A stretch of 64,000 nt of DNA from Cornus controversa (Eukaryota > Streptophyta > Magnoliopsida > Cornales > Cornaceae): positions 4,712,001 to 4,776,000 of the forward strand of contig CM048850.1 of the NCBI GenBank assembly GCA_026545225.1, read 5' to 3'. Numbering within the stretch: position 1 is the first letter of the stretch; each line of letters begins with the position of its first letter. The notes under the pieces were generated by a model. The model made no database searches and was not told the DNA's origin. It saw nothing but the letters and a program-made list of their open reading frames with translations. The position numbers and the translations under genes were made by a program. This document shows positions 7,610-61,894 of the stretch, one piece after another.

Positions 7610-8498
7610 TCCCTTCGGAGAGTCAATCGTCTCCTACGGACGTTAAATTGTAGGTTTTGTATGTATTTCTATCCTTTAATTTCTTTAGTTTTCTTTGATT
7701 CTAAGTTTTAGTTTTAGTTTTCTTACTTTTTCTTTCAATTCTAGTTGCATTTTAATGTTTTTTCTTTGAGTTTTTGATGTATAAGTTGCTTCCGGAGGAT
7801 GCCAAGAGGTGTACCGAGGTATTTGGACTCAAGACGGGTGAAAAATCGTGCTCTCGGTCGACCTTGGGCGATGGAGACTCAAAATTATCAAGGTTCGATC
7901 GACCTTGGGCGATGGAGGGTCCAACAGGCATCCAGGAGGGGGATCGATCGCCCCATTTGAGGGGGATCGATCGCCCCATGTTATTTCTTGAAGATCACCA
8001 CCATCAGGTGGGAGATCGATCGCCCATCCTTGGGGGGATCGATCGCCCAAGGCTAAATGTGGGCTGCCCGAATTTTCTTGGTATTTAAAGCTTCCTTATC
8101 CTCCTATGTTGCTACCACTTGCATCCTAGACCTCTTTGAACTCCAATTCAAGTCCTACATCATCCGGAAAACTAATTTCTTCAATTAGTGATTATTATAC
8201 AAGAATTCAACATTGGTCAACATCAACTTCAACATCAAATTGGATCAAAAATCACTAGTTCTCAAAGGAAGCTCACACTTTTTCAAGTTCAACATCAAAG
8301 TAAGTGAAGTTTTTCCTTGAAGAAATTGTTCAAATCTTTTTGAGGGCTTTTGAAGACCAAGTTTGGGGGATCAATTTGGTGCAATTACTTGTTCGATTTG
8401 GGTGGAAAAATTGCCGAAAAAAAGAGGTTGAAGAATACAAAAGAATTGTGCACACCAAGTGTTCGATTTAATTCCTCAACCACACTTTTTCTACTTCT
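7610..8498 (+). other. E1 spacer between pol and ORF3
   Basis: No coding signal beyond chance ORFs. A T-rich stretch (7650-7770) is followed by the GATCGATC palindrome cluster at 7856-8044. A polypurine-tract-like AAGTTTGGGGG at 8359-8369 precedes the ORF3 start. Long leaders before the third ORF are common in Athila elements. Confidence 0.7.
7856..8044 (+). repeat. GATCGATC palindrome cluster in E1
   Basis: Four perfect 8-bp palindromes GATCGATC lie at 7942, 7965, 8014 and 8037, each followed by GCCC. The intervals are 23, 49 and 23 bp. Upstream, GGTCGACC (7856) and TTCGATCGACC (near 7894) are each followed by TTGGGCGATGG. The layout resembles the palindrome clusters in the Tekay LTRs and in S, but with another core. 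Confidence 0.85.
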
Positions 8499-9722
8499 AT
8501 GGCACCAAAGAGAGCAAGTCACCAAGCTGCTTCAAGTTCACGTAATCCTCGCCGAGCGAGGCATGATCCGACCACAGGTTCTTCACGATCTCGCCGAGAC
8601 GGTATTCAAGAGAGATGGCATCCAAGGGCGTTGAATTATGAAACAACGTTTGACATAACCGAACTTTATGGTATGTTTCCCGAGACACGGTGGGGGATTT
8701 TCGACATCCGTCGTCGTCGGTCGGCATCCATTTTTGTTCCACTCTCATCTACCATTTACCCGAGGCTTGTCAAGGTATTTTATCAGAACTTAATGCCGAA
8801 ACCTGATGAGCGGGATGTGCTTACTTCTTCCATAGATGGAACAATAGTTCGAGTGGACATGTCATCCATTGCCATTGCCATGGGTTGTCCTCATGAATGC
8901 CCAGCTGATTTATCTCATATCTATACTCCTTTACCCGACGAGTTATCGGTGGGCAATGTGGTTGCACGATTGTGTGCCAACCAATTTTTTGGGCCGAAAA
9001 GGAATGCAGCTTCAAAGTCTTCAATGCCAAATCATTTATGGTTCCTTGACGCTGTGCTACTCAAGAATGTATGTCCAATTGGACATAAAATCGAAAGACG
9101 TCAAGAGTTCCTTAGAGCCTTATATGCTATACATTTTGGGCATTGGTTGTCATTCCCACAGATTGTCTGGGGCCAGATGGAGAAATTCTATTCCAAAGTT
9201 GTGGCCAAGGCACCAGACAGTGCAAGTGACTGGGAGTTTCCATTCCCTACTATTATTCACCAGTTGCTTGTAGCACAGGGGTATGCAGTCCATGAGGACG
9301 AGCTTGCCTTTCCACGTGATCTTCATTATGGCACGCATGACTGGAACCTGAGTCGATCTCATATGCACCAGAGAGTCATAGCGGCGCCTGGTGAGGTATC
9401 TCGGTTGGCCCAGGGAGGAGAGCATGTAGATATACCACCACCGGTGGAAGGTCCAGAAGAGATGGAGGCAGAGGAAGAGGAAGTGCATGCACAGGCTGGT
9501 GGCCATGATTATTAATATTTAGAAGGGCAGATTGCTGGGTTGACAACCCAGTTTGGCACCTTACAGACAGAGGTCTCCACATAGTTTGGTGCAATGAGAA
9601 TAGAGATGGCGGATCACTTTCGTGACACTCGCCAAGAGCAACTCGAGATGAGGAGGATGATGCGTGCACTGATGCGCCAAGCAAACTTGGATCCAGATGC
9701 TCAATCACCACCACATCCTTGA
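8499..9722 (+). pseudogene. E1 third ORF (Athila post-pol ORF), two stops
   Basis: Athila elements carry an extra ORF between pol and the 3' LTR, sometimes called env-like from its position; a role in the element cycle is not established. The ATG at 8499 (MAPKRASHQAASSS) begins a basic Ser/Arg-rich N-terminus. A conserved-looking central region follows, with TIYPRLVKVFYQNL and a C-terminal half ending in an acidic stretch (EEMEAEEEEVHAQ). The frame is open for 338 codons to TAA at 9513-9515. It then continues in the same frame past TAG at 9582-9584 to TGA at 9720-9722, adding a heptad-like segment (EMRRMMRALMRQA). I see no signal peptide or membrane segment, so the sequence does not support an envelope role. 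It resembles what databases call a putative plant transposon protein. Confidence 0.75.
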
Positions 9723-11352
9723 CAGAAAGGTAACCATCTTTTGTATTTTATTTTATTTTTAGCTTTTATTCTTCTCTTTATTTTTATTTTTATAGTTAGA
9801 TTTTTATTATGAAAAAAAAAATGGAAAAATGAAAAAATATTTTATTTTAGGATTTTTCTCTTTCATATTTATTTTCACCCATACTATTTTCACTTGATCT
9901 TTGGGGTATAGTGGCTTGTTTTAACAGGTTTTAACATCCAAGTTTGGGGGTGTGCTTGCATTGCCTTCGTACTCGTGATGTACTCTATTTCTTTCCGCTA
10001 CTCCATGATCCCGGTAATATCGTTCTTACTCTTCTCTATGCTTTAATTGGGTGTCCATTGAGGACAATGTACAGTTTAAGTTTGGGGGTGAGGCGATGCC
10101 TATTTATGTGCTTTATTGCATATGGGGGAAATTTGGGTGAAATTCTTTTGTATTAGGATTTTATTTTATTTTATTTTCTTAGTTTGTTTATTTTATTTTA
10201 TTTTATTTTGTTTTTAGATAGAATGTTTTGACATGATTCAAAGGATTAATACCTTATGTAGGTGCATAACTTGCAATTTTTGAGTATGTTTTAAATCTTT
10301 GAAAACTATGGTTTGAATTATGTGATTTTAATCATAGTTTGCAATAACATGCTTTGGAGTGATTAATTTTAGTTTCCTTAAATGCACAGACACAATAGCA
10401 TAATCTTATGGGGTATAGACTGTGGTTTTGAGTTACATATGCTTGATATTAATTAGTATCTCTTGAGAATGAGTACCGATGATGTGTTATACTTGACTTC
10501 AATGAAAAAAAAAAAGAAAAAAAAGAAAGAAAAAAAATGATGAATAAGCAATCAATTTGATCCTTTTCATGAGTAACCAGGCCTCTATGCCTCAGGAAGC
10601 ACGGAGTGTTCGCGTCAAAAGTGAAAAGGTGAGAAAAGATGAGCATTGGTTGTCTTGATTTGTAGCCTGACTGATTCGAGTAATTAGGTCTTCGGGGTAT
10701 CTTAAAGCCTAGTGCCCTAAAGCCATCTGGTTTGGGAGTCACTGACTGAAAGCTTGCTACATGGATATTTCAGAAAGCTTAATAGATCAAGACATTGCAC
10801 AACCAATAAAGCAATGAAAAAAAAAGGAATGATGAAAAAAAAATGAAAAGTCATGTATTCATGTTTGGAAGTATGATTTCAATAAGGGGAGCTAGTGAGT
10901 AGAAGGGGTATGTGCCTTAATATATTCAGAGCTTGGTTATGCCACATGAGATGACTGCTAGTTCACTTTACACGAGGGAGCTAGAGTTGATTATTTTGAG
11001 ATATGTTGATGTGAATTATGCATGGGGACCATTGATTTGAATTGTGGAATTTGAAAGTTTGAAATTATTCTTGAATGCAAGTTTGTAACTATGTATTGTA
11101 ATCTTCTTCTTGAATTAATGTTGAAACAGAATTTTGAATGTTTGTGGGTAACATTTCTGGAAACCCTCACGAGACTATACTCGTCCACTAGGGGGAACCT
11201 AGGGGTTTAAAGGCTTGTTGCATATGCTAAATGCAATCGTTTCTCCCACGAAAGTGGAGTTTGGATAGTTTAGTTAGTGTTTAGTAGTTTCTTTGTTTTA
11301 GTTTTGTTTTATTCTATTGCTAAGGGACTAGCAATATGTAAGTTTGGGGGTG
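9723..11352 (+). other. E1 3' noncoding region with repeated polypurine-like motifs
   Basis: No ORF of substance. AAGTTTGGGGG occurs at 9940, 10078 and 11340; the last, followed by GTG and the LTR, is the working polypurine tract. Shared blocks with E2 include GAGGACAATGT just before the second motif, a segment around 10680-10760 (GTGCCCTAAAGCC), and a strongly conserved ~120-bp block at 11145-11262. Poly-A/G runs at 10504-10540 and 10816-10846 are low complexity. Confidence 0.8.
11145..11262 (+). other. Conserved two-hairpin block before the E1 3' LTR
   Basis: About 92% identical by hand count to 17487-17604 in E2, far more alike than the two LTRs. It can form two small stems: CTAGG/CCTAG around a 5-nt loop, and TTGCAT (11218-11223) with ATGCAA (11231-11236) around a 7-nt loop. 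Conservation in two Athila families suggests a cis function such as packaging or priming. That is inference. Confidence 0.65.
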
Positions 11353-12861
11353 TGATAGGCGTTGAATGTTACGCATTCTAGCCTCTTAAATTATGTATTT
11401 TATTCTCTTAGTGATAGATTATTTTGTGATTTTACTTTGTTTTAGTGTTTTCTGTATTTTCAGGGCCTTAATGATTATTTCAGTTAAAACCAAGATTTTG
11501 GGCTTTTAAAGAAGACATCCAAGATGGTGAGATGAAGCCTACATCAAGGAGATTCACTCAACCATTTATTTCAAATCAAATCAGCCCAAGAAAGAGGTCC
11601 AAGAGAATTACAGCTGCTTAAGAATGTTTCGGGCCTGAAGCCCAAATCTGTGCATAATGCAGTCTTAGTCCCATTTTGGAAAACGGACCAGAAGTCTTAT
11701 TTTCGAGCCTCAAATCGACATTATTTTCACATAAGGTTGAACGAAATTTGATTCTGCACACTTTTGTATTTCACAAAAATTCTGTAAATCGGACTTCTAG
11801 TGGGTCAAAAGTCAGGCTGAAGTCAGCAGGAAAAACCCACCTGATTAGTGCTGCGGGAAACCCTAATTAATTCCTAATTGGATTAGGACTTTGGTATATT
11901 CTCTTGGAGAATAAAGTGAAGACTTGGAGGCTGAATTGGGAGAGCTTACACACAGAGATTGGAGAGTCTGAGAGGGCTGAAGAGAACAGAAACATATTGC
12001 AGAGCCATTGGAGAACAAAGTCATACGCGTAATTCAGAAAGATGATGTCTTCTTCCTCAACAGTTGAAACTTCTTCTTCTACCATGAGCGGCTAGTTCAT
12101 CCACTAGGGTTTTGATGTAGCCCTAACAAAGCATCAATGGTTTGATTATTTTAATTATTGGGGACCTTTATATACATGCATAGATTGTGTAATTGTGAGG
12201 ATTCTTATTAAGGAATTGAGCAATAAAAGTCTTGTAAATTCAATCTCAATGATTTCTTATCTTGTCTTAGATATTTAGTTGTTGTTATTGAACTCAATCT
12301 CTTTTATTTTCTGTGATCATGAGAGAGATTATTACACAATGGTAATCACTGAATATATTGTTATGAGCTTTGATGGATTATGCCTAGAGAAGATGAACCA
12401 TACTGCACCCTAGATTAGAGTAGTTAGGCAGATGGCCCATACCAATCGAAGATAGTCCATGGCTTAGCCTTAATCATATGTTATCTTCTTGACGGATGAA
12501 GGTGAGCTTGTAGCCACCGACACCACTTATGCATGATGTAATTCCCCTATAGTTGATTCAATTGACCATTGATTGTGGAGTTAGTGGTGAAGTCAAACAC
12601 CCTAGATTTCGCTCCTATTATCTTCACTATCTTGTTTACTTTGATTTATTTTATTTTACTTTTTAATTAGTTTAGTTTAAAAATCAGAATTCTTTTCTTA
12701 TAAATTTAATTAGAATTAATTCCGTAATCCAACTCGTCAGAACATAATCCCTGAGGTACGATACCCCTTTCGATAGCCCTATTCTGCAAGGAATTCGTTC
12801 TATTGCGAAGTGTGAAAATTTTTAATTGATATATTTTTGAGTCACACTGACACACGAATCA
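11353..12861 (+). repeat. E1 3' LTR
   Basis: Same length as the 5' LTR (1509 bp), same TGATAGG...GAATCA ends, about 35 substitutions. It is followed by the CCATG duplication and then T1 sequence. Many of the differences are C/T or G/A. Confidence 0.95.
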
Positions 12862-13589: not shown

Positions 13590-14916
13590 TGATAGGTAAT
13601 GAATATTGCATATTCAATGCCCTTAAAATTATATGAATTAGTGTCTTAGTAATATTTATTTCATAATTTTATTAATAATTTTAATCTTTTCAGAATTTCA
13701 GGTGATTAAAGGTAATTCTAATTAATAATGGTGCAATCGGGCTACAGATGGTGTTAGGCCTATTCACATTGAAGATTGGGCCAATTCAGGCCTAAAAAGT
13801 CTTGGACCCGTTTTGGTATTCAGACCATATCTCCGTACACGATTGTCAAAACGACCCAAACTCCGCCTGCCACTTTTTGGGAGCAAATGCCACTTTGTGA
13901 GGAGCAAGTGCCATTTTCTTATGCGCACTTGCCACTTTGGGAAGGCCAGGTGTCCCGTTGGTTTGTTTTCGCAAAGTAAAAACGACGAAACGAAGAAAAA
14001 CTAGGGATTCTGGAGGGGGGAAGCAGAGAGAGATATACAGAGGTGATTCGTAACGATACGGGCAAGACGACGGTGACTTCATCATCGTTCAAGCCTGGAC
14101 CTCCGATCATGAGTGGCTAAACACCATTTCGAGGAAGTGATGTAACCCTAACCTGTCTTTCAATGTTTTAGTCTGTATATTAATTTGAGGATTATTTATT
14201 TTGTGCATTGATTGTATAACCGAGACATAAACAATAGCTGTGCTATTGCTTTCAATTTGAATGTATTATTTCATTGCATATTTACTTTTGTTCTTGTAGA
14301 ATGAATGCAAGTTTGCAGTGATTAGGGTTTAGTTCTTTTCAATTTCTGTGATTTTGTTAAGACAGGTTATACAATAGTTTTCATAGATCATTCAATTTAG
14401 GGTTTTTATAATTCGTACTAAACGAAGATGGGTTATCATATCATTAGTTAGTCTGATGTATAGGCCATGCTAAGCGAAGACGAGTTATGCTTAATTATAT
14501 GTTGAATGAATCCTCTTGATAGAACTGAATTTGGCTTGTAGCCATTCTTTTCTGAATGCATAGATTAAACATCCCAAATTAATACAACTGTCATTGTTAG
14601 AAGGTTAGTGGTGAAGTCAATTCCCAGGACCCTCTCTCCAGTGTCTACCATTTATTTATGTTGTATTTCTTTTCATTTAATTTCAGCACCTTAGAATTAA
14701 AACTGAAACAAATTTTCTTTCAATTAAATTAGACAAGATCTTGATAGCTTAACAACACAACCAATGCAGTCTCTGTGGGTTTGACCCCTACTCACCACTT
14801 TACTAATTCTAGTAGAGTATTTGTAGGGTTTTATAAATTCTTTTTTTTTTTTGTCGAGGTGTAAAACAACAACGACATTATTCCATATTATTTTATCACG
14901 TTTTGCACGTCGAACA
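13590..14916 (+). repeat. E2 5' LTR
   Basis: Starts TGATAGGTAATGAATATTG and ends CACGTCGAACA. A three-fold GCCACTTT/GTGCCATTTT-like motif lies at 13868-13935, and a block ATGAGTGGCTA near 14109 resembles one in the E1 LTR. A poly-T run at 14841-14852 differs in length from the 3' copy. Confidence 0.94.
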
Positions 14917-14919
14917 AAA

Positions 14920-14936
14920 TGGCGCCGTTGCCGGGG
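14920..14936 (+). other. E2 primer-binding site (tRNA-Asp type)
   Basis: TGGCGCCGTTGCCGGGG, 3 bp after the LTR end, identical to the E1 site. Confidence 0.9.
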
Positions 14937-15219
14937 ACTGCGGTCATGATTGCGTTGTTAAGTTTAAAGATTAAGTCTTATTTAATTATAATTTAGGATT
15001 TGTATATATTCTATTTTTAATTTGTTTTAGGTGTTTTGTGTGTTTGAATATAGGTACAAGAGTTACTACACAAGTGGAAAGAAATTGAAATTTTAGGACC
15101 TCTTGTGAGTTTTTGTATTTTAATTCATGCACTTATGATTAGGGTTGTTAGTTTCTTTCAATTTTGAATTTTATTTTTATTTTTTTATTTTTTTTATTTT
15201 TTGTTGTTTTTTTTTAAAA

Positions 15220-16104
15220 ATGTCATTTGAGTATGAGTATCCTTCGGAGGCATGTTTTGATCAATTTGGTTGTGATGTGGATTTTGGATATCAAATTTCA
15301 ATGGATTTGTCCATCCAATTGGATGAATTATCATGGAAGTTGGAACAATTTGTGATCGTTGGTCATGTTCCTACTCCTACTTACTTTTCCAAACCACATG
15401 AGTTCTGTGTATGTTGTTATAGTCCTTATCATCATGTGAGAGATTGTCCTATTACGGGACAATGTTCTAATCTTTCTCAAGGACAAACAAATATAAATTT
15501 CTCTATACCGGGGAATGACTCTTATTCAAATACTTATAGCCCGGGATTTGAGGACAAAGTTTTGGCTGCACTTGGTAAACTTGAGGAACGAATTAGCAAC
15601 TTTGAGAAACAAAATAAATTGTTAAATTCACATTCACAATCCATAGCTAGGCTAGAAGTTCAAATCAAGGAAATAACCAATGCTTTGAATTGTGAAGATC
15701 AAGAGGAACTTCCAAGTCAGCCCGTGACTAATATTGAACTCACACAACCAAATGAGTTAGACCATGCCCCCTTTGTGGAATCATTACTCATACCGAACTC
15801 CAAAAATTTACATAAAGAACTTAAGTGTGATCACTTAAGTCATAATGAGAGTCCACCTTTTACCTTTGTTTTTGACTTGAGTAGTGACAAATTAGATATC
15901 AATGAGAAAATTAGTCAAGAACAAGTTAAAGGGTCATGTTTTCCTGAATTAGTCGAATTTTATTCGATTGATTCATTTTTCTTAAAACCTCACATTGATA
16001 TATATAAGAGGTGCCTAAAAATTGTTTGGATTCTGGCACAAGAAAGTGAGGAAAAAATAGGGGGGACACTCTTAGAGCTCCTCAAGAGATGTGGTATAGG
16101 GTGA
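15220..16104 (+). CDS. E2 gag-like ORF, uninterrupted, 294 aa
   Basis: The start at 15220 (MSFEYEYPSEACFD) is preferred to the upstream in-frame ATG at 15145, which would add 25 residues encoded by low-complexity T-rich leader. The protein has an N-terminal acidic segment, a zinc-knuckle-like CVCCYSPYHHVRDCP near residues 67-81, and a coiled-coil stretch with KLEERISNFEKQNK and SHSQSIARLEVQIKEI. A novel C-terminus then ends at TGA 16102-16104. The knuckle and the SHSQSIA motif match the nucleocapsid end of E1 gag, so this is the C-terminal part of an Athila gag joined to other sequence; the capsid domain is absent. Unlike every other coding region in the window it has no stop or frameshift. 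It may bind element RNA, or merely be young. Function is inferred. Confidence 0.7.
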   Translation: MSFEYEYPSEACFDQFGCDVDFGYQISMDLSIQLDELSWKLEQFVIVGHVPTPTYFSKPHEFCVCCYSPYHHVRDCPITGQCSNLSQGQTNINFSIPGNDSYSNTYSPGFEDKVLAALGKLEERISNFEKQNKLLNSHSQSIARLEVQIKEITNALNCEDQEELPSQPVTNIELTQPNELDHAPFVESLLIPNSKNLHKELKCDHLSHNESPPFTFVFDLSSDKLDINEKISQEQVKGSCFPELVEFYSIDSFFLKPHIDIYKRCLKIVWILAQESEEKIGGTLLELLKRCGIG

Positions 16105-16858
16105 ACCTTCCATCAAAAGTAGTAGTTAGGAAGTGTGTGTTTTTCTTTTCATTTATTTTTATTTATTTTTGCTTTTGTTTGAGTTAATTTTTCTTTGTTT
16201 TAATTATTATTTGTGTTTGTTTTTCATTTTGTTGCATTCTTTTTTATTTTATTTTATTTTTATTATTATTTTTTCTTTTAATATGCGTGGTGTGTAGTTG
16301 CATTTTTTATGACAGGTTCTTGCATCCAAGTTTGGGGGGATGGCCAACCCTTATTCATGTGAATGCTGTGCCAAATTTTTACATTTCTACCACTACGGTA
16401 ATATTGTTCTATCACTTACCATACACTTTATATTTTGTTACACATTGAGGACAATGTGTGATTCAAGTTTGGGGGTAAGGAAGAACACTTTTGTTTGTTT
16501 ATTTATTTTTTTATTTTAGGTTGTTTTGTTTTCAGTTTAGATATATTAACACCAATCAAGAGTTTAATACTTTATGTAGGTTCTTGATTTGGAATTGTAG
16601 AGTATGTGTAAAATTTCTAGAAACTATGGTTTGAATGCAGTGGGTTAAGTCGTTATTTGCATTGACATGACTTGGAGTGGTTGACTCTAGTTCTTTTCAC
16701 AATTCACATGCACACTAGTTGAGTTAGTGGGGTTTGTACTTGGCTTTGAGTATCAATTATGTGTGCTGAATATAAGTTGGTATCCCTTGAGATTAAACAT
16801 TCTAAACATGCTACACTTGTAAAAAAACAAAAAACAAAAAAATTAAAACAATAATCCT

Positions 16859-17165
16859 ATGGTTTGTGGCCGTTTTGGTTCGAGTTATTAGGTCCCTCGA
16901 GGTATCTTGAAACCTGGTGCCCTAAAGCCATTTGGTTTGGGAGTCATAGGCTGAAAGCTCGCTACATGGACCAATTCGAAAGCCTAATAAACCTAGGCAT
17001 TGCATTATTGGTTAGTCTATGGTTTGTGGCCGTTTTGATTCGAGTTATTAGGTCCCTCGAGGTATCTTGAAACCTGGTGCCCTAAAGCCATTTGGTTTGG
17101 GAGTCACAGGCTGAAAGCTTGCTACATGGATCAATTCGAAAGCCTAATAAACCTGGACATTGTAC
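16859..17165 (+). repeat. Tandem duplication (160-bp period) in E2
   Basis: ATGGTTTGTGGCCGTTTTG begins at 16859 and again at 17019, and the two copies then run in parallel (GGTGCCCTAAAGCCATTTGG in both) with a few mismatches. E1 has a single copy of the same block near 10680. Confidence 0.92.
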
Positions 17166-17170
17166 AACCA

Positions 17171-17194
17171 TATATATATATATATATATATATA
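17171..17194. repeat. (TA)12 microsatellite
   Basis: Uninterrupted TA dinucleotides directly after the second copy of the 160-bp duplication. Confidence 0.95.
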
Positions 17195-17680
17195 AATTGC
17201 ATATGTTCATGTTTTGAGTGATACATTCAATAAGGGGATCCAATAAATTGAAGGGACTTATAATTGCTCACTCAGGGTCGGGTTAAACCACACTAATGAA
17301 TGCTAGTTCACTTTTCACGAGGGGGCTAGAGTTGGTTTCTTTGAGTTGTGTTGTTGTAAAATTTGTATGAGAACCATTATTTTGAATTATGGGATTTAGG
17401 GATTTGAAAGTATTCTTGAAAGCAAGTCTTTTAACTGCATTTTGTAGTCTTCGTCTTGATTAATGTTTGAAATAGGAATTTTGGCATGTTTGTGGGTAAC
17501 ATCTCTGGAAACCCTCACGAGACTTCACTCATCCACTAGGGGTAACCTAGGGGTTTAAAAGGCTTGTTGCATATGCTAAATGCAATCGGATCTCCCACGA
17601 AAGAGGAAGTAGTTTAGTTGTTTTATTTCATTTTTAGTTGTGTATTGCTAAGAGACTAGCAATATGTAAGTTTGGGGGTG

Positions 17681-19003
17681 TGATAGGTAATGAATATTGC
17701 ATATTCAATGCCTTTAAAATTATATGAATTAGTGTCTTAGTAATATTTATTTCATAATTTTATTAATAATTTTAATCTTTTCAGAATTTCAGGTGATTAA
17801 CGGTAATTCTAATTAATAATGGTGCAATCGGGCTACAGATGGTGTTAGGCCTATTCACATTGAAGATTGGGCCAATTCAGGCCTAAAAAGTCTTGGACCC
17901 ATTTTGGTATTCAGACCATATCTCCGTACACGATTGTCAAAACGACCCAAACTCCACCTGCCACTTTTTGGGAGCAAATGCCACTTTGTGAGGAGCAAGT
18001 GCCATTTTCTTATGCGCACTTGCCACTTTGGGAAGGCCAGGTGTCCCGTTGGTTAGTTTTCGCAAAGTAAAAACGATGAAACGAAGAAAAACTAGGGATT
18101 CTGGAGGGGGGAAGCAGAGAGAGATATACAGAGGCGATTCGTAACGATACGGGCAAGACGACGGTGACTTCATCATCGTTCAAGCCTGGACCTCCGATCA
18201 TGAGTGGCTAAACACCATTCCAGGGAAGTGATGTAACCCTAACCTGTCTTTCAATGTTTTAGTCTGTATATTAATTTGAGGATTATTTATTTTGTGCATT
18301 GATTGTATAACCGAGACATAAACAATAGTTGTGCTATTGCTTTCAATTTGAATGTATTATTTCATTGCATATTTACTTTTGTTCTTGTATAATGAATGCA
18401 AGTTTGCAGTGATTAGGGTTTAGTTCTTTTCAATTTCTGTGATTTTGTTAAGACAGGTTATACAATAGTTTTCATAGATCATTCAATTTAGGGTTTTTAT
18501 AATTCGTACTAAACGAAGATGGGTTATCATATCATTAGTTAGTCTGATGTATAGGCCATGCTAAGCGAAGACGAGTTATGCTTAATTGTATGTTGAATGA
18601 ATCCTCTTGATAGAACTGAATTTGGCTTGTAGCCATTCTTTTCTGAATGCATAGATTAAACATCCCAAATTAATACAACTGTCATTGTCAGAAGGTTAGT
18701 GGTGAAGTCAATTCCAAGGACCCTCTCTCCAGTGTCTACCATTTATTTATGTTGTATTTCTTTTCATTTAATTTCAGCACCTTAGAATTAAAACTAAAAC
18801 AAATTCTCTTTCAATTAAATTAGACAAGATCTTGATAGCTTAACAACACAACCAATGCAGTCTCTGTGGGTTCGACCACTACTCACCACTTTACTAATTC
18901 TAGTAGAGTATTTGTAGGGTTTTATAAATTCTTTTTTTTGTCGAGGTGTAAAACAACAACGACATTATTCCATATTATTTTATCACGTTTTGCACGTCGA
19001 ACA
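17681..19003 (+). repeat. E2 3' LTR
   Basis: Same ends as the 5' LTR, about 19 substitutions, poly-T shorter by 4. It is followed by ACTAT and then T1 reverse transcriptase sequence. Confidence 0.94.
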
Positions 19004-21605: not shown

Positions 21606-21873
21606 TGTCACGTCTCGAAACCTGGACCGTCGGGACTCCCCCGGACCAACCCCGAATCCCGAGTGTGAACCCGTTCACTTAACCTCATGAACAATCTCAA
21701 TTACACTCAATGCATTAGTATCAAGGTTTAATACCATGCTATAACGCCCCGATTTCCAACTCTCGGAGAACCGGAGGTTAAACCGTCCATTTAGCCCAAT
21801 AGGCCCTCATTACCCTCATTCACCGCAGAAGCTTAACTAAATTCTTGCATATGAATGAACCCAAATCCACCTT
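21606..21873 (-). repeat. Tandemly duplicated LTR end with trapped primer-site remnant (T1)
   Basis: A second LTR-like start (TATAACGCCCCGATTTCC, 21740) lies 134 bp inside the true boundary at 21606. It is preceded by TTTAATACCATGC, a decayed match to the primer-site edge CTCTGATACCA. T3 and T4 show the same layout with periods of 101 and 104 bp. Confidence 0.6.
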
Positions 21874-22116
21874 AACTAATTCCCATGGGCCCTACATCAA
21901 ATCACACACCTTAGTGAACATTTACTTGTCCACACTTTTAAGAATCACTCACTTTCGAGCCTCAAAACTTCTATGTTTGGAATCTGAAACTGAAACTTAT
22001 ACCATTGGATATAGAGTTCAAAAATACTCAAGTTCAAAAAAAACCACACTCAATTCCGATCTAGAACGAATAAATTACGTCGAAATGAAGTTTTGGAAAA
22101 AGCTGTGAATAGTAAT

Positions 22117-22335
22117 TTCGATTAATCGAGATTAAATCTCGATAAATCGAAATGCTTGCGAGATTTTCACCCTTTCGGGACCCCAGACTTGCAATATCTC
22201 GATTGATTGAGATGGGGGTTTCAATTGATCGAAATTCCTCCTATCTGGACTCTAAAAATCACCATAAATCATCGCCCCTTCGATCAATCGAAATGGGGTT
22301 TCGATTGATCGAAATAGGCATCTCGATTGATCGAA
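22117..22335. repeat. Variable-core palindrome cluster in T1 LTR
   Basis: Seven 14-bp inverted repeats of the form TTCGAT-NN-ATCGAA (arms with at most a few changes) start at 22117, 22138, 22198, 22220, 22279, 22300 and 22322. Spacings are 21, 60, 22, 59, 21 and 22 bp. The central pair varies: TA, AA, TG, TG, CA, TG, TG. Confidence 0.9.
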
Positions 22336-23127
22336 ATGCACCTCCCGGGACTTCCAACAACCCTATACATGATCCATATGAAGCCCAATCAACATCCTAT
22401 CATCCTAGAACCCCTCATATATGATTAAAAACATAAATGAAAGGTCCCAACATCAATCTCACTCTCAAGATCACATTCATAATTGAATTGATACACCAAA
22501 ATGAATCATTTCTTTCACGAACACAACCCATTCATAATGGAAACATCATCAAAATGAATTAAGTGCCGCCATGGGCATTACATAAATTAAACCGTTGTCT
22601 TTTCACACCCAACAAGTTTGTAATCCAATACATACATCAAGAGTACATATGTCCCAAGTACAACCACTACTAAAAAGGAAGTCAAATGCCACAAGCCGGC
22701 ATGGATAGCCACAAAAATGCACAAATCCAAAAGATAGCAAACCCACCACTAGAGTTCCACTTGGACACTGATGTCCCATCCGTCATCGGCGCTTTATCTA
22801 TAAAATATTTAGAATAAAGGGGTGAGCACCACTGCGGCTCAGTAAAGGTTCCCCAACCCTCCTAAGTGCCGACCCGACACGACCTACATGAATGCATGCC
22901 ACTACATTACATGTATGCATGTCACTACATTACATGTATCATCAAACATATACCATGTTCATTCGCAAGCAATGCATATATATAAGAATGCATTAAACAC
23001 ATAGCATGCTTCATAATTTAGAATGGAAGCATTAACCACACTCTTGTCTCTCTCTCGGACTCAACCCGAGACCCTGGAATGATTCTTGACCAACCACACA
23101 ACCTAGGCTATTTTCCACCCAAGTTTA

Positions 23128-23425
23128 GAATTTTCATCACCGAGAACATCGGTCCTACCAAGTAATGAAATTGTTTTAACACGCACCACCGAGAACATCG
23201 ATCCTACCAGCTGATTAGCTCATTTTAATACACACCACCGAGAACATCGGTCCTACCAGGTGATGAGATCATTTTTTTGGAATGCACCACTGAGAACATC
23301 GGTCCTATTAAGTGATGAGATATTTTTGGAATGCACCACTGAGAACATCGGTCCTACCAAGTGATGAGATATTTTCGGACTACACCACCAAGAACATCGG
23401 TCCTACCAAGTGATGAGACCCTTAC
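23128..23425. repeat. 49-bp tandem array in T1 LTR
   Basis: Six units, each with CACCACCGAGAACATCGG and then TCCTACCAAGTGATGAGAT (with variants), start at intervals of 49, 49, 52, 49 and 49 bp. A like-placed array of 40-54-bp units is found in solo LTR X. Confidence 0.92.
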
Positions 23426-24660
23426 AAGATTTTCGCCTAGAACTCCTACCTCCAAGGTGGTCTAAACACCCCAACGCCCTCACCGAGTATCCACCTACTC
23501 TAGGCAATTCGACCACTTTTTCCCATTTCCTCCCAACGGTCCCATATATGTATTTCGAACATATTGTACTCAAGCACTCAATATTCATGCTTCATAATGA
23601 ATTATCTAGTTATAAAGGAACATATCATGCATTTCATCTTCACAAAACCACATATGCATACAACTTCAAAATTAGCATACTTTACTCATGCCACACTAAA
23701 TGCATAATTTTAGCATATGGAACTAACATGCATTCAACCACCACATATTCTACATATAATCACATATATGACACAAGGTTAGGCATTTGCACATAAAGCC
23801 CAAATTGAGCACAAAAGACCTATATACCCAATTTCTTCATTTCACACATTTTAACTCACATACTAAAACCAACACAAGGATACCAAATGTGCAAAGATAG
23901 GACTCAAGAGAAGGAGAAAACACAACTTTTCACACCCCTCACCATCCTAAAGCATGTGATACACAACCTACACATCTCCTCTCCACCCGAAACCCTAGAA
24001 TCGACAATTAGGAGAGAAGAAGAACCCCTACCTCAAAAATGAAGACCTTCCAAGCACTTCACCAAAATTCCAGCGATGTCTATCTTGCCGAACCACCACT
24101 TTGATCGGTTCAAAGGAAGCCCTAACTGTCCCCTACGTATCTCCCTCATTCGGCAAGCCTTGAATCTAAGCCGAACGGGTCTGAAATGTAGAGAGAAGGG
24201 AAAGCTATGAAGATGGAGAGCTTTAGAGAGAGAAATAGGCGTGAGATATGGCTGAATATCTCTGCCACTGATATTTAAAATATTTAGGGCTTGCAAAAAG
24301 ACCAAAATGCCCCTTGGCCACTTAACGTACCCTCCCGGACTCCTTTTTCGATTCCGAAAACTCCTACGGTCTCGAAATCACTTCCTTTACTCTCTAAACA
24401 TTTCATCTCAGCCATTCCCAAAAATAAATATTTTCGAGAATTTTTCGGATTCGCGGGCCCACTTAAGTCGCATCCCGGGTTCCGGTTTGACCAAAAAGTC
24501 AAACTTCTCCAAATCTCCCGAAAAGTTTCCAAAACCTTAAAAACACTTCCCAAACATGTTTTCCACACTCAAAACACGTTAAACACAACTCAAAATGCAT
24601 TTTTGACAATTATAATGCGAAAAATGCCAAAACCGGCCAAAATTGGTCACGATCTCTACA

Positions 24661-41950: not shown

Positions 41951-42025
41951 TATTTATCTATATGACAAGATGAAGCCCAGTAAGCTATCCAAAGTGTTCA
42001 TAAGGCCCAACAATTGACCCTTATA

Positions 42026-42385: not shown

Positions 42386-42390
42386 GTAAT

Positions 42391-44023: not shown

Positions 44024-44599
44024 TGTCACGCCCCAACTCCTCATACCTAGGACGGTATAGGGACTCAAGGGTGAGAAAATTACACGTCAACCCATTCATC
44101 ATTGATCACGCACTAATACGATGTTGTCACGCTCCGAATTCCTATACCCAAATTGATATAGGGAATGGGGGTGAACAATCCCAACGTTATCTCACATCAT
44201 CACTCCTAATTTCTAAACCATATTTACACTCCTATACAACCCTATCATGCTTGCATTTCTACTACTGGGGCCTTCACGGGACAACCAGCCAAAGCCAACA
44301 ACTCAACCCAACTCAATCAGCACTTCAAGTACTTCGATTAATCGAAGGTAGAGCTTCAATTAATCACACTTCTTGCGAAACTTCTATCGAAACACATGGG
44401 TTTTTGACCCGTAAATGTTGTTAGGTCTCCAATTAATCAAAAATTAGGGTTCGATTAATCGAAATCCTAGTTTTAATTGATCACAACCCCATCTGTAGGA
44501 GTTCTCATTCCCTTGTCATTCCAACTTCAAACACCAATTTAAGTACATCAAATCCTTCTATAACATAACATACATCTATACAAGTTTATACATAACCAC
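44024..44599 (-). repeat. T3 3' LTR, part left of S
   Basis: Starts TGTCACGCCCC at 44024. A second start, TGTCACGCTCCG, occurs at 44125, preceded by CTAATACGATGT, a decayed primer-site edge (compare CTCTGATACCATGT in T4), so the LTR end is tandemly duplicated (101-bp period). It ends with ACCAC, the S target duplication. A palindrome cluster lies at 44333-44486. Confidence 0.75.
44333..44486. repeat. Variable-core palindrome cluster in T3 LTR
   Basis: CTTCGATTAATCGAAG (44332-44347) is a perfect 16-bp palindrome. Relatives start at 44355, 44428, 44450 (TTCGATTAATCGAA, perfect) and 44472. Adjacent intervals are 22, 73, 22 and 22 bp. The 44355, 44428 and 44472 copies have decayed arms. Confidence 0.85.
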
Positions 44600-45966
44600 T
44601 GTTACCCAAGAGTTGACCTTAGAGGGGGGTGAATAGGGTCAATGGCAATCAATGACAATTTTCTACAAATTTAAATTTCAAGAACAAATCTAAATGAAAG
44701 CAATAGTGAAATGAGGAAAATGAATTTGATGCACAAAAATTAAGAGAGAGAGTTAGAGAGAATCAAACACAAATGACGCAAGATGTAGCGTGGTTCAGAA
44801 TCTCCTACTCCACGATTCAAGATTCCTCTTGAGATTTTCCCAAATCCACTAAGGCTTCTCCTTTCGGGTGGAAAGCAAACATTTACAATGAAGCTTATAA
44901 GCTTCTTCCTTTCTCTTGCTAAGTGAAATCCTTCACCTAGTCTTCTAGGGTTCAACCAACCTTTACAATAAATGAGGAGAAGGTTTACAGCTCAAAGAAT
45001 ATATTTCTTAAAGATAAAATCTCAAATGAAAGCTCACAAGACTATTAGATATATATGAATCACAAGATGAAGCTCAAGTCTAATAAATGAGAATGATTGA
45101 GTGTTGTTTGCAATGAATATAGCTCAAATAAAATAGCTCAAGTGTTGGTTAATGAAATAAATGCAGAGCCATCAATATATATAGAGCCCCTTTGAAATAT
45201 AGTTGTTGGAAGGTAGTTGAGGGCATTAAATGCACTGAACTATCCCTTGGATTTGAATTCAGAATGTTTGAGGTGACTCAAAATGAGTTTGAGGCACCTC
45301 ATAAACTTTGAGGTGGCTTAAAGTGTATTTTGAGGTGGCTCAAAGTGCAGTTTTAGGTGCCTCAATAATTCTGAGGTGCCTCAAAGTGAGTTTAAGGTGG
45401 CTCAAAGTCAATTTGAGGCACCTCAAAAAGCCTTCTCAAAATTTCAATTTCTTCTTATAACTTTGATATGGCTCAAACTAAAGTTTGAGGCACCTCAAAG
45501 TCCTTTAACCTTTAAAGAGTCAAAATTCAAAGAAGGTTAGGACAATGAGCTTGTTTAGTCTTAGAAAATCATTAAATTGATATCAAGACCTATTTCAAGT
45601 AAATTAGAGACCAAGAAATGATATGATTGTGAATGCATGGTTCTATCATAGAAATGAGCTTCAATCATGTTATTTATAAATAACTTTGACAATGAAATCC
45701 TAGCTCTCACCAACTTATTTATACCCCATTTCTTCAAAAATGGCATTTGTCTTTAAATCTTGGGACAACACCTTCTTCTTCAATGGAATGCTTTCTTTGA
45801 CACTGTCCTCTTCATGACATCATCCTCAATGTGAATGCTTTTTTGAATAAACATCATTACTTCAAAATCAATCACTCAAATTGGGAATTAGTACAAAACA
45901 TCATTAATGATTTGTTATCATCAAAATTATAAGATTGCCCTTAGGTTAAAAACCTTTGGGTCAACA
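44600..45966. mobile_element. S: 1.37-kb solo LTR of an unclassified element
   Basis: Starts TGTTACCCAAGAGTTGACC and ends CTTTGGGTCAACA: TG...CA ends with an extended imperfect inverted terminus. ACCAC is duplicated at 44595-44599 and 45967-45971. Removing it joins the T3 LTR. There is no primer site, polypurine tract or ORF. A MITE or other TIR element with a 5-bp duplication is an alternative. The opening AGGGGGGTGAATAGGGTCAA text recalls a repeat widespread in dicots, but I cannot name it. It contains the palindrome array at 45267-45499. Confidence 0.72.
45267..45499. repeat. Ten-copy palindrome array (TTTGAGG-NN-CCTCAAA) in S
   Basis: 16-bp units start at 45267, 45288, 45307, 45329, 45351, 45370, 45391, 45412, 45462 and 45484. 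Two (45412 and 45484) are TTTGAGGCACCTCAAA with perfect 7-bp arms; the others have one to four changes. The first eight starts average 20.7 bp apart. Confidence 0.93.
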
Positions 45967-45971
45967 ACCAC

Positions 45972-57250: not shown

Positions 57251-59399
57251 TGTCACACCCTGAATGTCCATACCCAGAATGGTACAAAAACTCAAGGGTG
57301 AAGAAGTGAAACATCACTTCTTAACATACATCACAACACAACCTTAACATATATAAATATCAACTAACACATGTAATACTCATCAAGTGAACACCTACCC
57401 CATTTATACATAGTTGTTCTTATCCAAAACCAACATTTAAGGCATAAATGACTATATACAATATCTCAAAATAAAAGTCTCCTTATACATGTCTAAATGC
57501 ATCATGTCCACATCTCGGACGTGCATAACACAAAATAACCAAAAGGAGTTCTTCTAAACTCTAAATCCAACTTATGGTTGGTTACCCTCAGTGACCTCAA
57601 TGCCATTTCCTAAAATTGTTAATGTAGCGGCAGTGAGCAAAGTCAACGGCTCATGGTCATATGTTGTGCAATCCACTTAAGTCCTCATATTTCATATTAA
57701 TACATAAATCAATCAAAATGCATAGCAGAGCTACGTGCCATGCTTCCTAGCATTCTAGTCAATGCCATAATTGATTTATTCACATGGTATACAAGTCAAT
57801 ACACATGACAATTCATAAAGCTCAATCTAGTTCCATGCATTAATGCACAACTTCATCATACTTATAACATATGACAAACAAAAAAACTCAAATATAGAGT
57901 CCAACACAAAATCACACTGCTCTCGAAATTTGAAGCCCCATACCCCACGTTCATAGTTATTTTTAGGCTACTAACCCACTGGTAACCAACCCTCTTGTAT
58001 ATGTTTGAGGTCTTTCAACCCCGGAGGATATATTTCTCCTCTACTTTATACATGAGTCATTTCCGAGATGTCATTCCATACACCCCAAACATGTCACGTT
58101 TAACATATACACACGCAAGTCCTCGATGAACCGTTAATGACATATACAAAATCCATTTATTTCAAAACAACTCACATTAAGCTTTAAGCTTAACCCATAA
58201 CACCACATCACTAGAAATCCCACATAACCTCATATATGCCAAACATTTATCATATATGGCCTATAATCACAAGGCATGCATTCTAGGCATTCTACATCAC
58301 AATTTTAGTCATTTTCATTAAAGTAAATAAAAAAACAACAACATAATTTCTCATATTTTCAAAAATAATATGAAAACCTAACATTTTATGCATATAATAT
58401 GAAATTAAACTTTAATTGAAAGACACAACACACACCCCCTACTTTAAGAGATTAAATTTGAATTTCATGTCATAGGTTCAATTTCTAGCATGTCAAGCAA
58501 TAAATCGTTAATGACATATACAAAATCTATTTATTTTAAAACAATTCACATTATGCCCTAAGACTAACCCATAACACCACATCACTAGAAATCCCACATA
58601 ACCTCATGTATGCCAAACATTTATCACATATGGCTTATAATCACAAGGCATGCATTCTACATCATAATTTTAGTCATTTTCATTAAAGTAAAGAAAAAAA
58701 CAACAACATAATTTCTCATATTTTCAAAAATAACATGAAAACCTAACATTTTATGCATATAATATGAAATTAAGCTTGAATTGAAAGACACAACACACAC
58801 CCCTACCTTAAGAGATTAAATCTCTAACACCACTCAAATTTAGAAACTCAAAAATACCCAAGCCTATCTTTGTTCGGATCAAAACGATGCCCTCACCACA
58901 TAAAACAAACTTCCTTTCATCAGCACATTTCAAATCTCACCCTAAAGTCTCCAAAACTTAGAGAGAAGGAAGAAAATTGAAGAAAGAAGAGAGAACAGAA
59001 GTTCACGGCTACTTAGGAAGAAAGAAATGGCTAGAAATATCTAAAATATGATATTTAAAAGCCCTAGGGCATAAAATGACCAAAACGCCCTTAGTTGACT
59101 TAACGTATTTCCCGACCTCCGTTTTTGAATCTGAAAGCGGCTATGACCTCGAAATCAATTATACATCTCTTCTAAAATTCTATTTGGTGTCAAACAAAAA
59201 ATAAAATTTTCTTAAAAAATCTCAGGTTTCCCAGGTCCCATCAACCCAAAAAATTTAAATTGAGCCAAATGACTTAGAAAACTCCTCGGACCTTTACACA
59301 AGTCCCTACATATGTAAATCACATTGAAAATATATGCAAATCTATTTATAATCTTATTTTAAAAAATAAATAAATAAAAGAAAATTTTGAATCTCTACA
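57251..59399 (-). repeat. T2 5' LTR with internal duplication
   Basis: Starts TGTCACACCCTG and ends GAATCTCTACA. A block starting near 58138 (ATGACATATACAAAATC) is repeated from about 58511, making this LTR 278 bp longer than its partner; part of the first copy is also deleted near 58128. Confidence 0.9.
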
Positions 59400-59463
59400 G
59401 GCTTGAACAAGTGACGAAACATCTAAGGGTAATGTCTACACCCGATGATGGAATGAAGGTGAT
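59400..59463 (+). pseudogene. T5 gag, middle fragment
   Basis: Reads LEQVTKHLRVMSTPDDGMKV, lying between the GGCTT duplication of T2 and the GTGAT duplication of T4. Continues at 61900 with ILATYSFLRGVDI. Confidence 0.85.
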
Positions 59464-61894
59464 TATCACGCCCTGATTTCTGTTCTCCAAAAACCAAGGG
59501 TGACTGAATTTTCACTCATTGAATCACCTCATGAATCTCGCTATGGTATCTTACTCTGATACCATGTTGTCGCGCCCTGATTTCCATTATTCGAAAACTG
59601 AAGGTGAACTCATCCATTAATGACTAATGAACTTTATTTACTCTTAAATATTGCAGAAGCTTAACTATTTTCTTACACATAGACATGCTAACTCAACCTC
59701 AACCGCAACAAATCTAAAAAAGCCCCAAATCAAGCCACAATTACATAACTCCTAAATTTTTAGAACTCAACTCCCCTTGTAACTGGAACTTGAAATTGAA
59801 ACGCTCAAAATTGGATAGAGGATTCAAAAATACTCAATTTCAGAAAAATCACACTCAATTTTGATTTAAAATGAAAAAGTTATACCCGATTGAAGTTTGA
59901 GCTAATTTCGGATAATGCTGTGAATAGTGACTTCGATCCATCGAAATGGCAACTTCAATCCATCGAAGTTTTGATGCATCGAACATGTATCGACTTAATT
60001 ATCAAAACCTGCTATCTAGTAGTCGAAATTCCCAACTTATAGGCTCCAAAACTTCTCTAAAAAGCCTAAAAATCATCAAACGTCATCCACAACATGTACA
60101 AATGATAAAAACATCATCATACACCATTCTAATCATGAATCTACATCTCCAACAATCATATCCAAGAACTTATACATAATGGAATCAAAACCAACATTCT
60201 TCCATTCAAAACCCACAAATCACATATGATCCATTTATGATCATTACATTTGAAACTATAGTGCATCAACATGAATCAAATGTAAATATAACATCATTAA
60301 CATAGTCCACATGCCACAAACTGGCATCAACATCTATTTACATCTTAAAAGGTTAAAAGTCCAAAAATGGAACTCAACAAGTTCCATTGAGTTATTCATG
60401 CTTCATCCTCCATTGGTGCCTTATCTGAAAAGTTTATATAAATAGGGGGTGAGCTTATTCTCTCTCGCTCAGTAGGAATGATCCACCCAACTCTACTCTA
60501 AATCAGGCAGCTATGCTTGGATGCATTGAAATCATTACATGTCTACATGACAAATATCCATACTTTTTACCCATAACAATCACGTTTTATAAATCATGTA
60601 TGATGCTTCACATTCCAATATATACATACAAGTAGAAAATTGAGCAAGTCACAATTCAATGTATAAATCAAGCCACATAAGTCCAAAAATCAATTCAAAG
60701 GGACACTTTTATCAAATCAATAGTAAAGGTCCCATTGGCACCTAAACAGTGCTTACGCTTCTTGGTTCACTATTCTAACGGATGTGACACTGCTCGGCCA
60801 AGTTTTGGGTCTTTCACCCTAGGGGTCCATTCCCTTATCTTAATTCTTACACTCTTGCCCCAAAACTCGTCACATAGTGCATTTTATCACATAATGCACA
60901 TATCCTACACAATGAAATGCATTTTGTCAAATCAACACATTTTCTTCCTCAAATCAAACATGTCACAATGTTATTTCACTCACATCATGAAAATCATCAT
61001 GTTTATGCAATTTTTAAGAAAATCGTATCTTTTATGGATCATTCTATATAAAAACTCAGATTTATACATTTTCATTAAATGAACACAGTTTCAACAATTA
61101 GCATACATAGTCTTAATATCACATATGTGACGTATATAAGCCCTAAATAACATGTTAGAAATATATATGCATAAATCACATTTTCATATATATAAATACT
61201 TACACCAAACCCTAACCCAAGAAATCTGAACCTATCTTTTATGGCACAATAAAAAGGACCTATAGAATCAAAGTAAAGATGAGTCTAGCACCCCTACCTC
61301 AAATCTTAAGCTTTGAATCCAAATTTGAGAAATCCTAACTTTCTCAACTTCATGAAACACGGACTTTGTTCAGTTCAAATTGAAGCCCTCGACACCCTCT
61401 ACATACTTTCCTTCTTCGGGATCCTATAAATCACACCTCAAGTGACCTAAAATCTAGAGAGAATGGAGAGAGATGAAGTGGTGACTTTTATAGAGAAAGT
61501 GAGATATTTAAATATGAAATATCCCAGACCTTGGGATATTTATTTCACTCCTAGGGCGCAAAAAGACCGTTTTGCCCCTCCCGGCCTCCGTTTTCAATTT
61601 CAAAAACTCTGTTGGACTCAAAATTTCTTCCTTAATACTCTAAAATTTTCATTTAATTCATAGTTAAAAATAAAAATTTTCAAATTTTTCGGACCCACTT
61701 AACCCCATCCCGGGGCTCCTGTTGACCAAAAAGTCAAACTTTTTCAAAAGTTGTCAAAACTTTCCAAAACCATCATCTAACCCTCTTAACATGTTCTCCA
61801 CATTCAAAACATGTTAAATATCATTTTAAATGAGTTTAAAGCAATAAATGATGAAAAATTAAAAAATCGGTCAAAATTGGGCACGGTCTCTACA
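59464..61894 (-). mobile_element. T4: Tekay-type solo LTR inserted in T5 gag
   Basis: On the plus strand it starts TATCACGCCCTG (TG mutated to TA) and ends GCACGGTCTCTACA. GTGAT is duplicated at 59459-59463 and 61895-61899, and removal restores the T5 gag frame. It aligns along its length with the T1 LTR. A second LTR start, TGTCGCGCCCTG, lies at 59568, preceded by ACTCTGATACCATGT, a nearly perfect primer-site match inside the LTR. A palindrome cluster lies at 59932-59983. No internal domain is present, so it is a solo LTR of about 2.43 kb. Confidence 0.92.
59932..59983. repeat. Variable-core palindrome cluster in T4
   Basis: TTCGAT-CC-ATCGAA (59932), TTCAAT-CC-ATCGAA (59954) and TTTGAT-GC-ATCGAA (59970). 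Intervals are 22 and 16 bp. The position in the LTR matches the T1 cluster, just after GCTGTGAATAGT. Confidence 0.88.

Follow-up and report, generated by a model that had tools for sequence, protein, structure and literature searches.

Homotypic clusters of transcription-factor sites upstream of the TATA box of long terminal repeats (LTRs) are familiar in plant retrotransposons, as with the heat-shock elements of ONSEN and the BII boxes of Tnt1. ONSEN, as far as the available part of its description goes, is activated by heat-shock factors. In the VANDAL elements of Arabidopsis, which are Mutator-like, the portions at hand of two reports describe a short, family-specific motif in tandem in noncoding element DNA, with repeats gained and lost, together with a protein, VANC, encoded by the element itself (PMC5735166; PMC10398659). 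Retand, according to the part of the source available, has an antisense open reading frame (ORF), TRP28 (PF04195), which belongs to an uncharacterised family of 'transposases' with predicted DNA binding, and tandem repeats between pol and the 3' LTR for which a regulatory role was proposed (PMC11963269). Here we describe five arrays of short inverted repeats (dyads) in a stretch of 64,000 nucleotides of Cornus controversa (assembly GCA_026545225.1, contig CM048850.1, positions 4,712,001 to 4,776,000; hereafter the window), and their relatives elsewhere in the genome. The new observation is that such arrays precede the TATA-like box of the LTR and a third ORF (ORF3) related to PF20167, in most copies read of Athila-type elements and in the copia family S. 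How plant LTR elements escape silencing is an open question, on which a gene plus operator module found in both superfamilies would bear; to our knowledge, what the third ORF does in env-like retrotransposons of plants is not settled either.

Arrays at two putative promoters

Clusters of inverted repeats had been reported at five places in a preliminary description of the window, and all five, named T1, T3, T4, S and E1, were confirmed. Four lie on the minus strand. The T1 array (22117..22335) consists of seven dyads of the form TTCGAT-NN-ATCGAA, two of them exact, within a Tekay-like 5' LTR; the T3 array (44333..44485) has five dyads, again with two exact, in the 3' LTR (about 44024-47740) of the element Ta, which is split by S; and the T4 array (59932..59983) has three, in an LTR of about 59566-61894 with its primer binding site (PBS) at 59553-59564. 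S is a solo LTR (44600..45966) inside the Ta LTR with a 5-bp target duplication GTGGT, and its ten dyads TTTGAG-NNNN-CTCAAA (45267..45499) end 83 bp before a TATATA box (45178..45183). On the plus strand, the Athila-type Ty3/gypsy element E1 (1688..12861; LTRs 1688-3198 and 11351-12861, PBS 3204-3216) has four dyads GGGNGATCGATCGCCC at 7938..8048, between pol and ORF3, with half-sites GGGCGAT at 7866 and 7907.

Same-arm dyad pairs at most 400 bp apart, counted for T1, T3 and S only, number nine in the window, whereas 100 dinucleotide shuffles average 0.08 and never exceed one, and a family-free dyad map places S, T1, E1 and T3 among the top blocks, intermixed with AT-repeat blocks. In the 772-Mb host genome, searched with the reversed sequence of each motif as its control, TTCGATNNATCGAA occurs 21,656 times (control 49), TTTGAGGNNCCTCAAA 1,409 times (control 1) and the E1 motif GATCGATCGCCC 4,771 times (control 8) or, on the other strand, 4,825 times (control 6). 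A strict de novo search, which demands three exact dyads sharing one arm, recovered arrays in 26 of 44 fetched loci, in the window for S alone and in none of 450 shuffles; because the loci had been selected for these motifs, the first figure is a test against shuffles and not a discovery rate.

The TTCGAT sample comprises 20 places (L010-L029) at 0.76-2.29 Mb of C1, picked for the exact motif, several of which are LTR pairs or close relatives with non-independent units. Homology to window pieces assigned 16 of them, 12 to Athila and four to Tekay, while L010, L014, L017 and L024 were left out. The S-type statistics stem from 15 overlapping loci that represent seven distinct arrays. Picking units by arm match introduces a bias towards arms, from which tandem-repeat detection and the flanks outside the search pattern are free.

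E1 combines a Ty3/gypsy reverse transcriptase (RT) and the PBS TGGCGCC with a third ORF after pol; the fetched loci, among which this PBS is seen in L013, L019, L025, L027 and L028 only, were assigned to its class by homology to E1, and we take E1 and most TTCGAT loci read to belong to the Athila lineage. One and the same Athila element carries identical arms in the LTR and in the spacer before ORF3, the PBS being found in L019, L027 and L028. In copies fetched with both arrays, the LTR array mostly comprises 5-7 dyads and the internal one, which separates the pol region from ORF3, 11-16; among GC-centred copies, L025 has three in the LTR and four before ORF3, and L026 six before ORF3. TATATA follows the LTR array 110-130 bp downstream in all six cases examined, and TATTTAA lies 34 bp past the last core of the internal array in seven of ten, the others having a variant (L029) or CACTTAAA (L025, L026). 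In E1, the dyads reported preliminarily are present but precede ORF3 and do not lie in an LTR. Here TATTTAA, the putative internal ORF3 promoter (8082..8088, plus strand), stands 37 bp past the last GATCGATC core, and ORF3 is a frame of 347 amino acids (8472..9512, plus strand) that matches PF20167 (Transposase_32) with 38.7 bits at a curated cut-off of 45. For comparison, 1.4% of randomly chosen window positions have TATTTAA in the 100 bp that follow, and 21% have some TATA-like word there. The ORF3 products of E1 and L012 have no protein-database homologues at E<=1e-3.

In L011, L016, L019 and L027, all of Athila type, the match to the E1 RT piece ends near residue 172-174, before the internal array, which suggests a shared deletion and non-autonomous copies.

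The family of S is presumably the SIRE lineage of copia, and a pair of elements closely related to each other, L053 and L054, served to check its architecture. L053, with an LTR 87% identical to S, encodes between LTRs of this kind PF14223, rve and PF07727, that is, the gag, integrase and RVT_2 domains of a Ty1/copia element. An LTR contains 12 dyads in L053 and 11 in L054, the LTRs of which are cut by the fetched ends, and in both elements eight dyads stand directly upstream of the third ORF. As in S, TATATA lies 83 bp downstream of the L053 LTR array, and TTTAAA comes 11 bp after its internal array. The copia ORF3 matches PF20167 above the curated cut-off, with 79.5 bits in L053 and 78.4 bits in L054. 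L055, a third place, has a gypsy pol and no ORF3. Two unrelated superfamilies thus have a recognisable common plan of array, TATA-like box, leader and PF20167-like ORF, with a second array at the putative LTR promoter in most copies read. The PF20167-like ORF after the internal arrays had been missed preliminarily, as had the internal array of the S family, which was not visible from the window.

If the arrays belong to ORF3, dyads with as yet unseen arms are expected upstream of PF20167 genes. The genome yielded 4,447 first-look candidates and 150 scored hits of this family, with none in 14 control genomes, and eight upstream pieces of 1.2 kb each, chosen by frame length and not by dyads, were read. 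Arrays are present in five of the eight, three found de novo (L058, L062 and L060) and two (L059 and L056) by means of the arms so learnt. The two new arm motifs are AAAGTCGACTTT and TTTCAGNNNNCTGAAA: AAAGTCGACTTT forms the arrays of L058 and L062 (shuffle maximum 2 in each), L060 has four units of TTTCAG-N4-CTGAAA (shuffle maximum 3), and L059 has nine units and L056 seven with the learnt arms, for a shuffle maximum of 2. At up to three mismatches, L058 and L062 reach 15 units each with a commonest step of 22 bp; the units of L060 are spaced exactly 22 bp, and its array ends 10 bp before TATATA.

L060 also permits a comparison within the copia lineage. Its RT/RNase H is 94% identical to that of L053 over 214 amino acids and the N-terminus of its ORF3 52% over 87, and the arms differ, TTTCAG..CTGAAA versus TTTGAG..CTCAAA, in that a G-to-C change in one arm is matched in its partner. 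L054 and L053, on the other hand, have 96% identical ORF3 products and the same arms. In these few families, the pattern is as expected if ORF3 reads the arms.

Structure of the sites

Within the window arrays, pairwise identity amounts to 0.78-0.89 in the arms and 0.25-0.51 in the spacers, and arm conservation over spacers is significant by column permutation in all four arrays tested (p 0.0001-0.008; E1 left out). The consensus of the TTCGAT loci, drawn from 40 arrays with 211 units, of which 177 are distinct when flanks are included, is AT-Y-TCGAT-YR-ATCGA-R-AT, columns beyond which hold at most 0.21 bits; units were searched for with the inner TCGATNNATCGA alone, which leaves the outer AT-Y and R-AT free of any imposed symmetry. 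T..A and C..G are in excess over independence at the outer pair, with 42 C..G where 28.1 are expected (Fisher p 7e-5, uncorrected for the relatedness of copies), and some LTR arrays are mostly C..G, others mostly T..A. The site of the S family reads A-N-TTTGAG-N4-CTCAAA-N-T. Each of the four E1 dyads has one imperfect arm, and the E1 type, GGG-CGAT-CG-ATCG-CCC, is perfect in some units of other copies; its inner CGAT..ATCG is common to TT-CGAT-NN-ATCG-AA. As a symmetric extended site and arms kept while spacers diverge are marks of a dimer-binding site, each motif is apparently a symmetric site of about 16-20 bp for a dimeric protein. The preliminary proposal of such sites in unrelated families thus gains from the extended symmetry, the co-varying outer pairs and, in Athila and copia S, the location of arrays ahead of TATA-like boxes. 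The recurrence of the design in separate elements holds for unrelated families, but T4 and Ta, the element of T3, are relatives of T1 by LTR comparison, so that the common arms of T1, T3 and T4 represent one case and not three.

The arms are kept as had been described, but the two-base centre is not free, being mostly TG, CA, TA or CG. Centres in the window are TG, CA or TA in 11 of 12 units of T1 and T3 and TG or CA in all ten of S, with T4 (CC, CC and GC) a misfit; among 205 units in 28 arrays of the genome, TG or CA accounts for 150, TA for 16, GC for 16 and CG for 14. CpG decay of a perfect palindrome as the origin of the centres fails for Tekay and Athila, L012 having intact arm CpGs and yet TG/CA centres; the idea fits the S type, where CG centres are common at sites listed elsewhere in the genome and the LTR of S has a CpG observed/expected ratio of 0.10.

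Successive dyads are spaced by 21, 60, 22, 59, 21 and 22 bp in T1, 22, 73, 22 and 22 bp in T3, 22 and 16 bp in T4, 21, 19, 22, 22, 19, 21, 21, 50 and 22 bp in S and 23, 49 and 23 bp in E1. The spacing of about 21-23 bp claimed earlier stands as an excess of 20-23 bp in T1, T3 and S (p about 0.001-0.003) and E1 (p 0.03); T4 has no excess, and the genome adds a second class. Of 171 Athila and Tekay steps of at most 30 bp, 51 measure 16-17 bp, four 18-19 bp and 116 20-22 bp, and larger steps of about 41 and 82-84 bp are also present in TTCGAT arrays, while 27 of 42 S-family steps are 21-22 bp and seven 49-50 bp. Coherence at 10.5 bp is high in S (0.68; 99% level 0.66) and T3 (0.87; 95% level 0.76) but not in T1 (0.19), T4 (0.37) and E1 (0.74; 95% level 0.84). 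Since the 16-bp class corresponds to about 1.5 helical turns, phasing on one face of the DNA, as had been supposed, is not a general rule.

The similarity that the spacers of S and T1 retain indicates that the arrays grew by tandem duplication. Such growth would equally be expected of neutral minisatellites, in which a palindromic unit that has no binder is copied by slippage, with help from hairpins that form in DNA or in the course of reverse transcription, and for beet minisatellites the part of the source at hand proposes slippage linked to palindromes (PMC2820488). Moreover, 26 of 65 tandem-repeat rows of the window have a period of 20-23 bp, compared with 13 rows in 20 shuffles, and such repeats without dyads are common (e.g. 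at 13868, 24941 and 39751), so that the period itself seems frequent in these elements. Simple tandem repeats with identical spacers, the contrary case named preliminarily, are realised in the E1 pair at 7936-7979, an exact 23-bp duplication, whereas the spacers have diverged in T1, T3, T4 and S. As arms stay conserved while spacers diverge, and as two arm-matched arrays per element, symmetric extended flanks and, in Athila and copia, a fixed placement before the TATA-like box would be unexpected, we regard neutral minisatellites as improbable.

Serial RNA hairpins in the transcript had been considered as well; they might serve in packaging or dimerisation or as small-RNA precursors, and the arrays do fold better than shuffles (z -1.7 to -10.9). 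The two strands, however, fold about equally well, the arrays have no Rfam match, and the S-type and Athila LTR arrays lie upstream of TATA, hence outside the 5' part of the transcript. In addition, arm pairs of T1, T3, T4 and S changed one-sidedly in 22 cases and with compensation in two, which is weak evidence against strict symmetry too. Hairpins are accordingly given very little credence. Compensatory arm change as such is visible in the outer-pair covariation and in TTTGAG versus TTTCAG between copia copies, whereas changes in the window and in L053 are mostly one-sided.

Tekay-type elements with Athila arms

The array T1 belongs to a Ty3/gypsy element with a 5' LTR of about 3 kb (21607..24660, minus strand) and a PBS at 21590-21601 (TGGTATCAGAGC). 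The Tekay lineage is marked by a chromovirus integrase C-terminus, the PBS TGGTATCAGAG and a long LTR; the domain scan found protease (RVP_2), RT, RNase H, the integrase zinc domain and a Tf2-1 SH3 domain, and no chromodomain match in the T1 ORF scanned. The arrays of T1, T3 and T4 are all located in the 3' part of the LTR, and that of T1 is probably in the leader of the transcript because it lies far downstream of a putative TATA region near 24280. Dyads of T1 recur also at about 81 bp (22117, 22198 and 22279) as a higher-order unit.

YR-centred arms are common to T1, T3, L018 and L020, all Tekay-type, and most Athila copies read, and the GC-centred form is common to the Tekay-type L021 and Athila L025 and L026. 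Between the dyads, T1 and T3 show no match to Athila above shuffles; homology of the T1 inter-dyad block to Athila arrays was rejected, its best z of 3.5 in 16 comparisons being beaten by a shuffle. Either Tekay elements gained sites for an Athila factor, or both use a host factor.

The latter possibility extends to all arrays: the dyads might bind host transcription factors, as homotypic host-site clusters recruited to serve as LTR or internal enhancers in the manner of the ONSEN heat-shock sites, with ORF3 otherwise employed, for example as an env-like protein. Homotypic clusters near promoters are typical enhancers, and it is mainly because Tekay elements, with no ORF3 found, have the Athila arms, in YR-centred and GC-centred forms alike, that a host factor is retained as an unlikely but serious alternative. 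It is at odds with the lineage specificity of the arms, which change within one copia lineage at 94% identity of RT/RNase H, and with the arrays adjoining one protein family in two superfamilies, and the five arm sets seen would require several host factors. Should a host factor bind nevertheless, one of its sites would be present in more than 21,000 perfect copies in this genome, with consequences for the regulation of host genes.

That Tekay arrays are not clearly promoter-proximal also fits insertion targets or docking sites for integrase or chromatin in place of promoter operators, and a palindrome preference of plant LTR elements has been reported, although it is weak and small in the part of the source available (PMC6911290). 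None of the mapped insertion points (those of S, E1, the element at 13590-19004 and Tb) falls in an array, and the placement before TATA in Athila and copia suits promoters better, which makes targeting or docking highly improbable.

A candidate self-encoded regulator

We judge the chances to be slightly in favour of the dyads being operators of ORF3 itself, as a self-encoded dimeric regulator acting at the LTR and internal promoters. A dimeric, sequence-specific DNA-binding protein would bind the dyads, while tandem duplication would multiply the sites and selection hold the arms. In Athila and copia S the arrays would stand upstream of two promoters, that of the LTR and an internal one driving ORF3, and ORF3 would be the factor that binds the dyads of its own family, switches on both promoters or keeps them open by activation or anti-silencing, and drifts jointly with its sites. 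Its action might be activation, an opening of chromatin or repression. Tekay LTRs with Athila arms and without ORF3 would be hitch-hikers on that factor. More tentatively, at somewhat less than an even chance, PF20167 proteins in general may be retrotransposon-encoded, palindrome-specific regulators in Ty1/copia and Ty3/gypsy, each serving two promoters via dyad arrays, with protein and arms co-evolving and gene-less Tekay elements hitch-hiking on Athila-family sites. Present in the sequences themselves are the arrays, their symmetry and the conservation of arms. The copies examined also show arrays placed ahead of TATA-like boxes and ORF3, and in one copia lineage the arms changed together with ORF3 divergence.

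Several observations weigh against ORF3 as the regulator. With respect to the protein, the Athila ORF3 scores for PF20167 are below the cut-off, with 36.2 bits in L012, 28.9 in L028, 25.6 in L011 and 19.7 in L019 besides the 38.7 of E1, and the L027 piece has no match; there is hardly any alignment between the ORF3 products of copia and Athila (E 2e-4 for E1, 0.012 for L012), and the predicted structure of the E1 ORF3 is useless (pLDDT 36), so that no DNA-binding fold can be derived from it. The L060/L053 ORF3 comparison spans the N-terminus only, ahead of the PF20167 domain. With respect to the sites, besides the one-sided changes in the window, five of eight internal L053 units have one arm altered and the other intact, E1 is an exception in that its LTRs lack GATCGATC and any array, and Tb, which is closer to Ta, has no array. 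Among the pieces upstream of PF20167 hits, L060 has four units only at a de novo shuffle maximum of 3, the five positive pieces form just two arm groups, no TATA-like word follows the L058 and L062 arrays within 200 bp, and the mutually related L057, L061 and L063 show no clear array, L061 having three AT-rich units for a shuffle maximum of 2. T1 carries an array with no extra ORF of at least 150 amino acids, and hence no ORF3, in its own segments and no TATA-like word after the array, T4 having TTTAAA at 62 bp, and in the Tekay-assigned L022 an ORF3-like match lies on the opposite strand, 0.5 kb away from the PBS, and perhaps belongs to a neighbouring element. The L022 match, the small number of units in L060 and the lack of a TATA-like word after the L058 and L062 arrays slightly lowered our confidence in ORF3, as in the wider PF20167 reading, and raised that in a host factor. 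If ORF3 does bind its own arrays, the raw sequence would suffice to read off the target of each protein, with the arrays as address tags.

Other features of the window

Tb, a relative of Ta, has a 5' LTR at 57251..59399 (minus strand) without a TTCGAT array, near the end of which a different inverted repeat, AAGAAGTGATGTTTCACTTCTT, is found at 57301-57322; it is degenerate in the other Tb LTR. In the gag region of E1, 3882-3987 (minus strand) gives an antisense match to the Rfam plant small nucleolar RNA (snoRNA) R71 with 47 bits at a gathering threshold of 40, either a snoRNA carried by the retrotransposon or an Rfam family seeded from such elements. A Ty3/gypsy element resembling Retand, flanked by LTRs of about 346 bp, occupies 28752-42387 and has an antisense Transposase_28 ORF (40863-41456, minus strand), an accessory family reported for Retand in the available part of the source (PMC11963269). 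A satellite with higher-order units of about 164, 205 and 370 bp extends over 24662-27679 and ends beside the start of the T1 LTR. Of the 28 window ORFs of at least 150 amino acids, 20 were scanned with Pfam, as was ORF3, and gave retroelement domains, PF20167 and PF04195 only. The best-matching named relatives of one window ORF are proteins of Camellia, Cornus and Actinidia, which points to an asterid host, probably close to Ericales or Cornales.

Comparison with known systems

The full motif strings gave no match in the literature searched, the shorter cores no paper on a plant transposon by title, and titles and abstract beginnings of the work on LTR palindromes and tandem repeats no description of such arrays, no search having been aimed at PF20167. 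Neither PF20167 nor 'putative plant transposon' occurs in the main text of PMC11963269.

Pairs of TTCGATNNATCGAA in three viral and two bacterial contigs recall the operator pairs of dimeric bacterial proteins, a likeness of site design only, as the organisms are unrelated; a search of viral contigs by RT gave no plant relatives. In one phage-like contig (L003:3579-3612), two TTCGATCTATCGAA dyads stand 20 bp apart beside an HxlR winged-helix gene.

ONSEN and Tnt1 differ from the elements described here in the use of a host factor and in having no known second array at an internal ORF. The nearest precedent seen among plant LTR elements is Retand, which likewise combines an extra ORF of a 'transposase' family with tandem repeats; the protein family is another one, its ORF is antisense, and the repeats are not described as dyads in the available part of the source. 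The arrangement proposed here, a self-encoded DNA-binding regulator at an LTR and an internal promoter, is that of Tas/Bel-1 of foamy viruses; these are animal retroviruses, no sequence relation is claimed, and Tas sites are not known to be uniform palindrome arrays.

The analogy with VANC, drawn in the preliminary description, is borne out as a likeness of working: in VANDAL elements as here, a short motif has accumulated in tandem in noncoding DNA and differs between families. VANDAL elements are DNA transposons and the elements studied here LTR retrotransposons, and the YAGTATTAY motifs of VANC21 are arrayed in one orientation, whereas the present sites are palindromic. Membership of the VANC system is not claimed. 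If ORF3 binds its own arrays, plant LTR retrotransposons would possess a VANC-like, lineage-specific regulatory system of their own.

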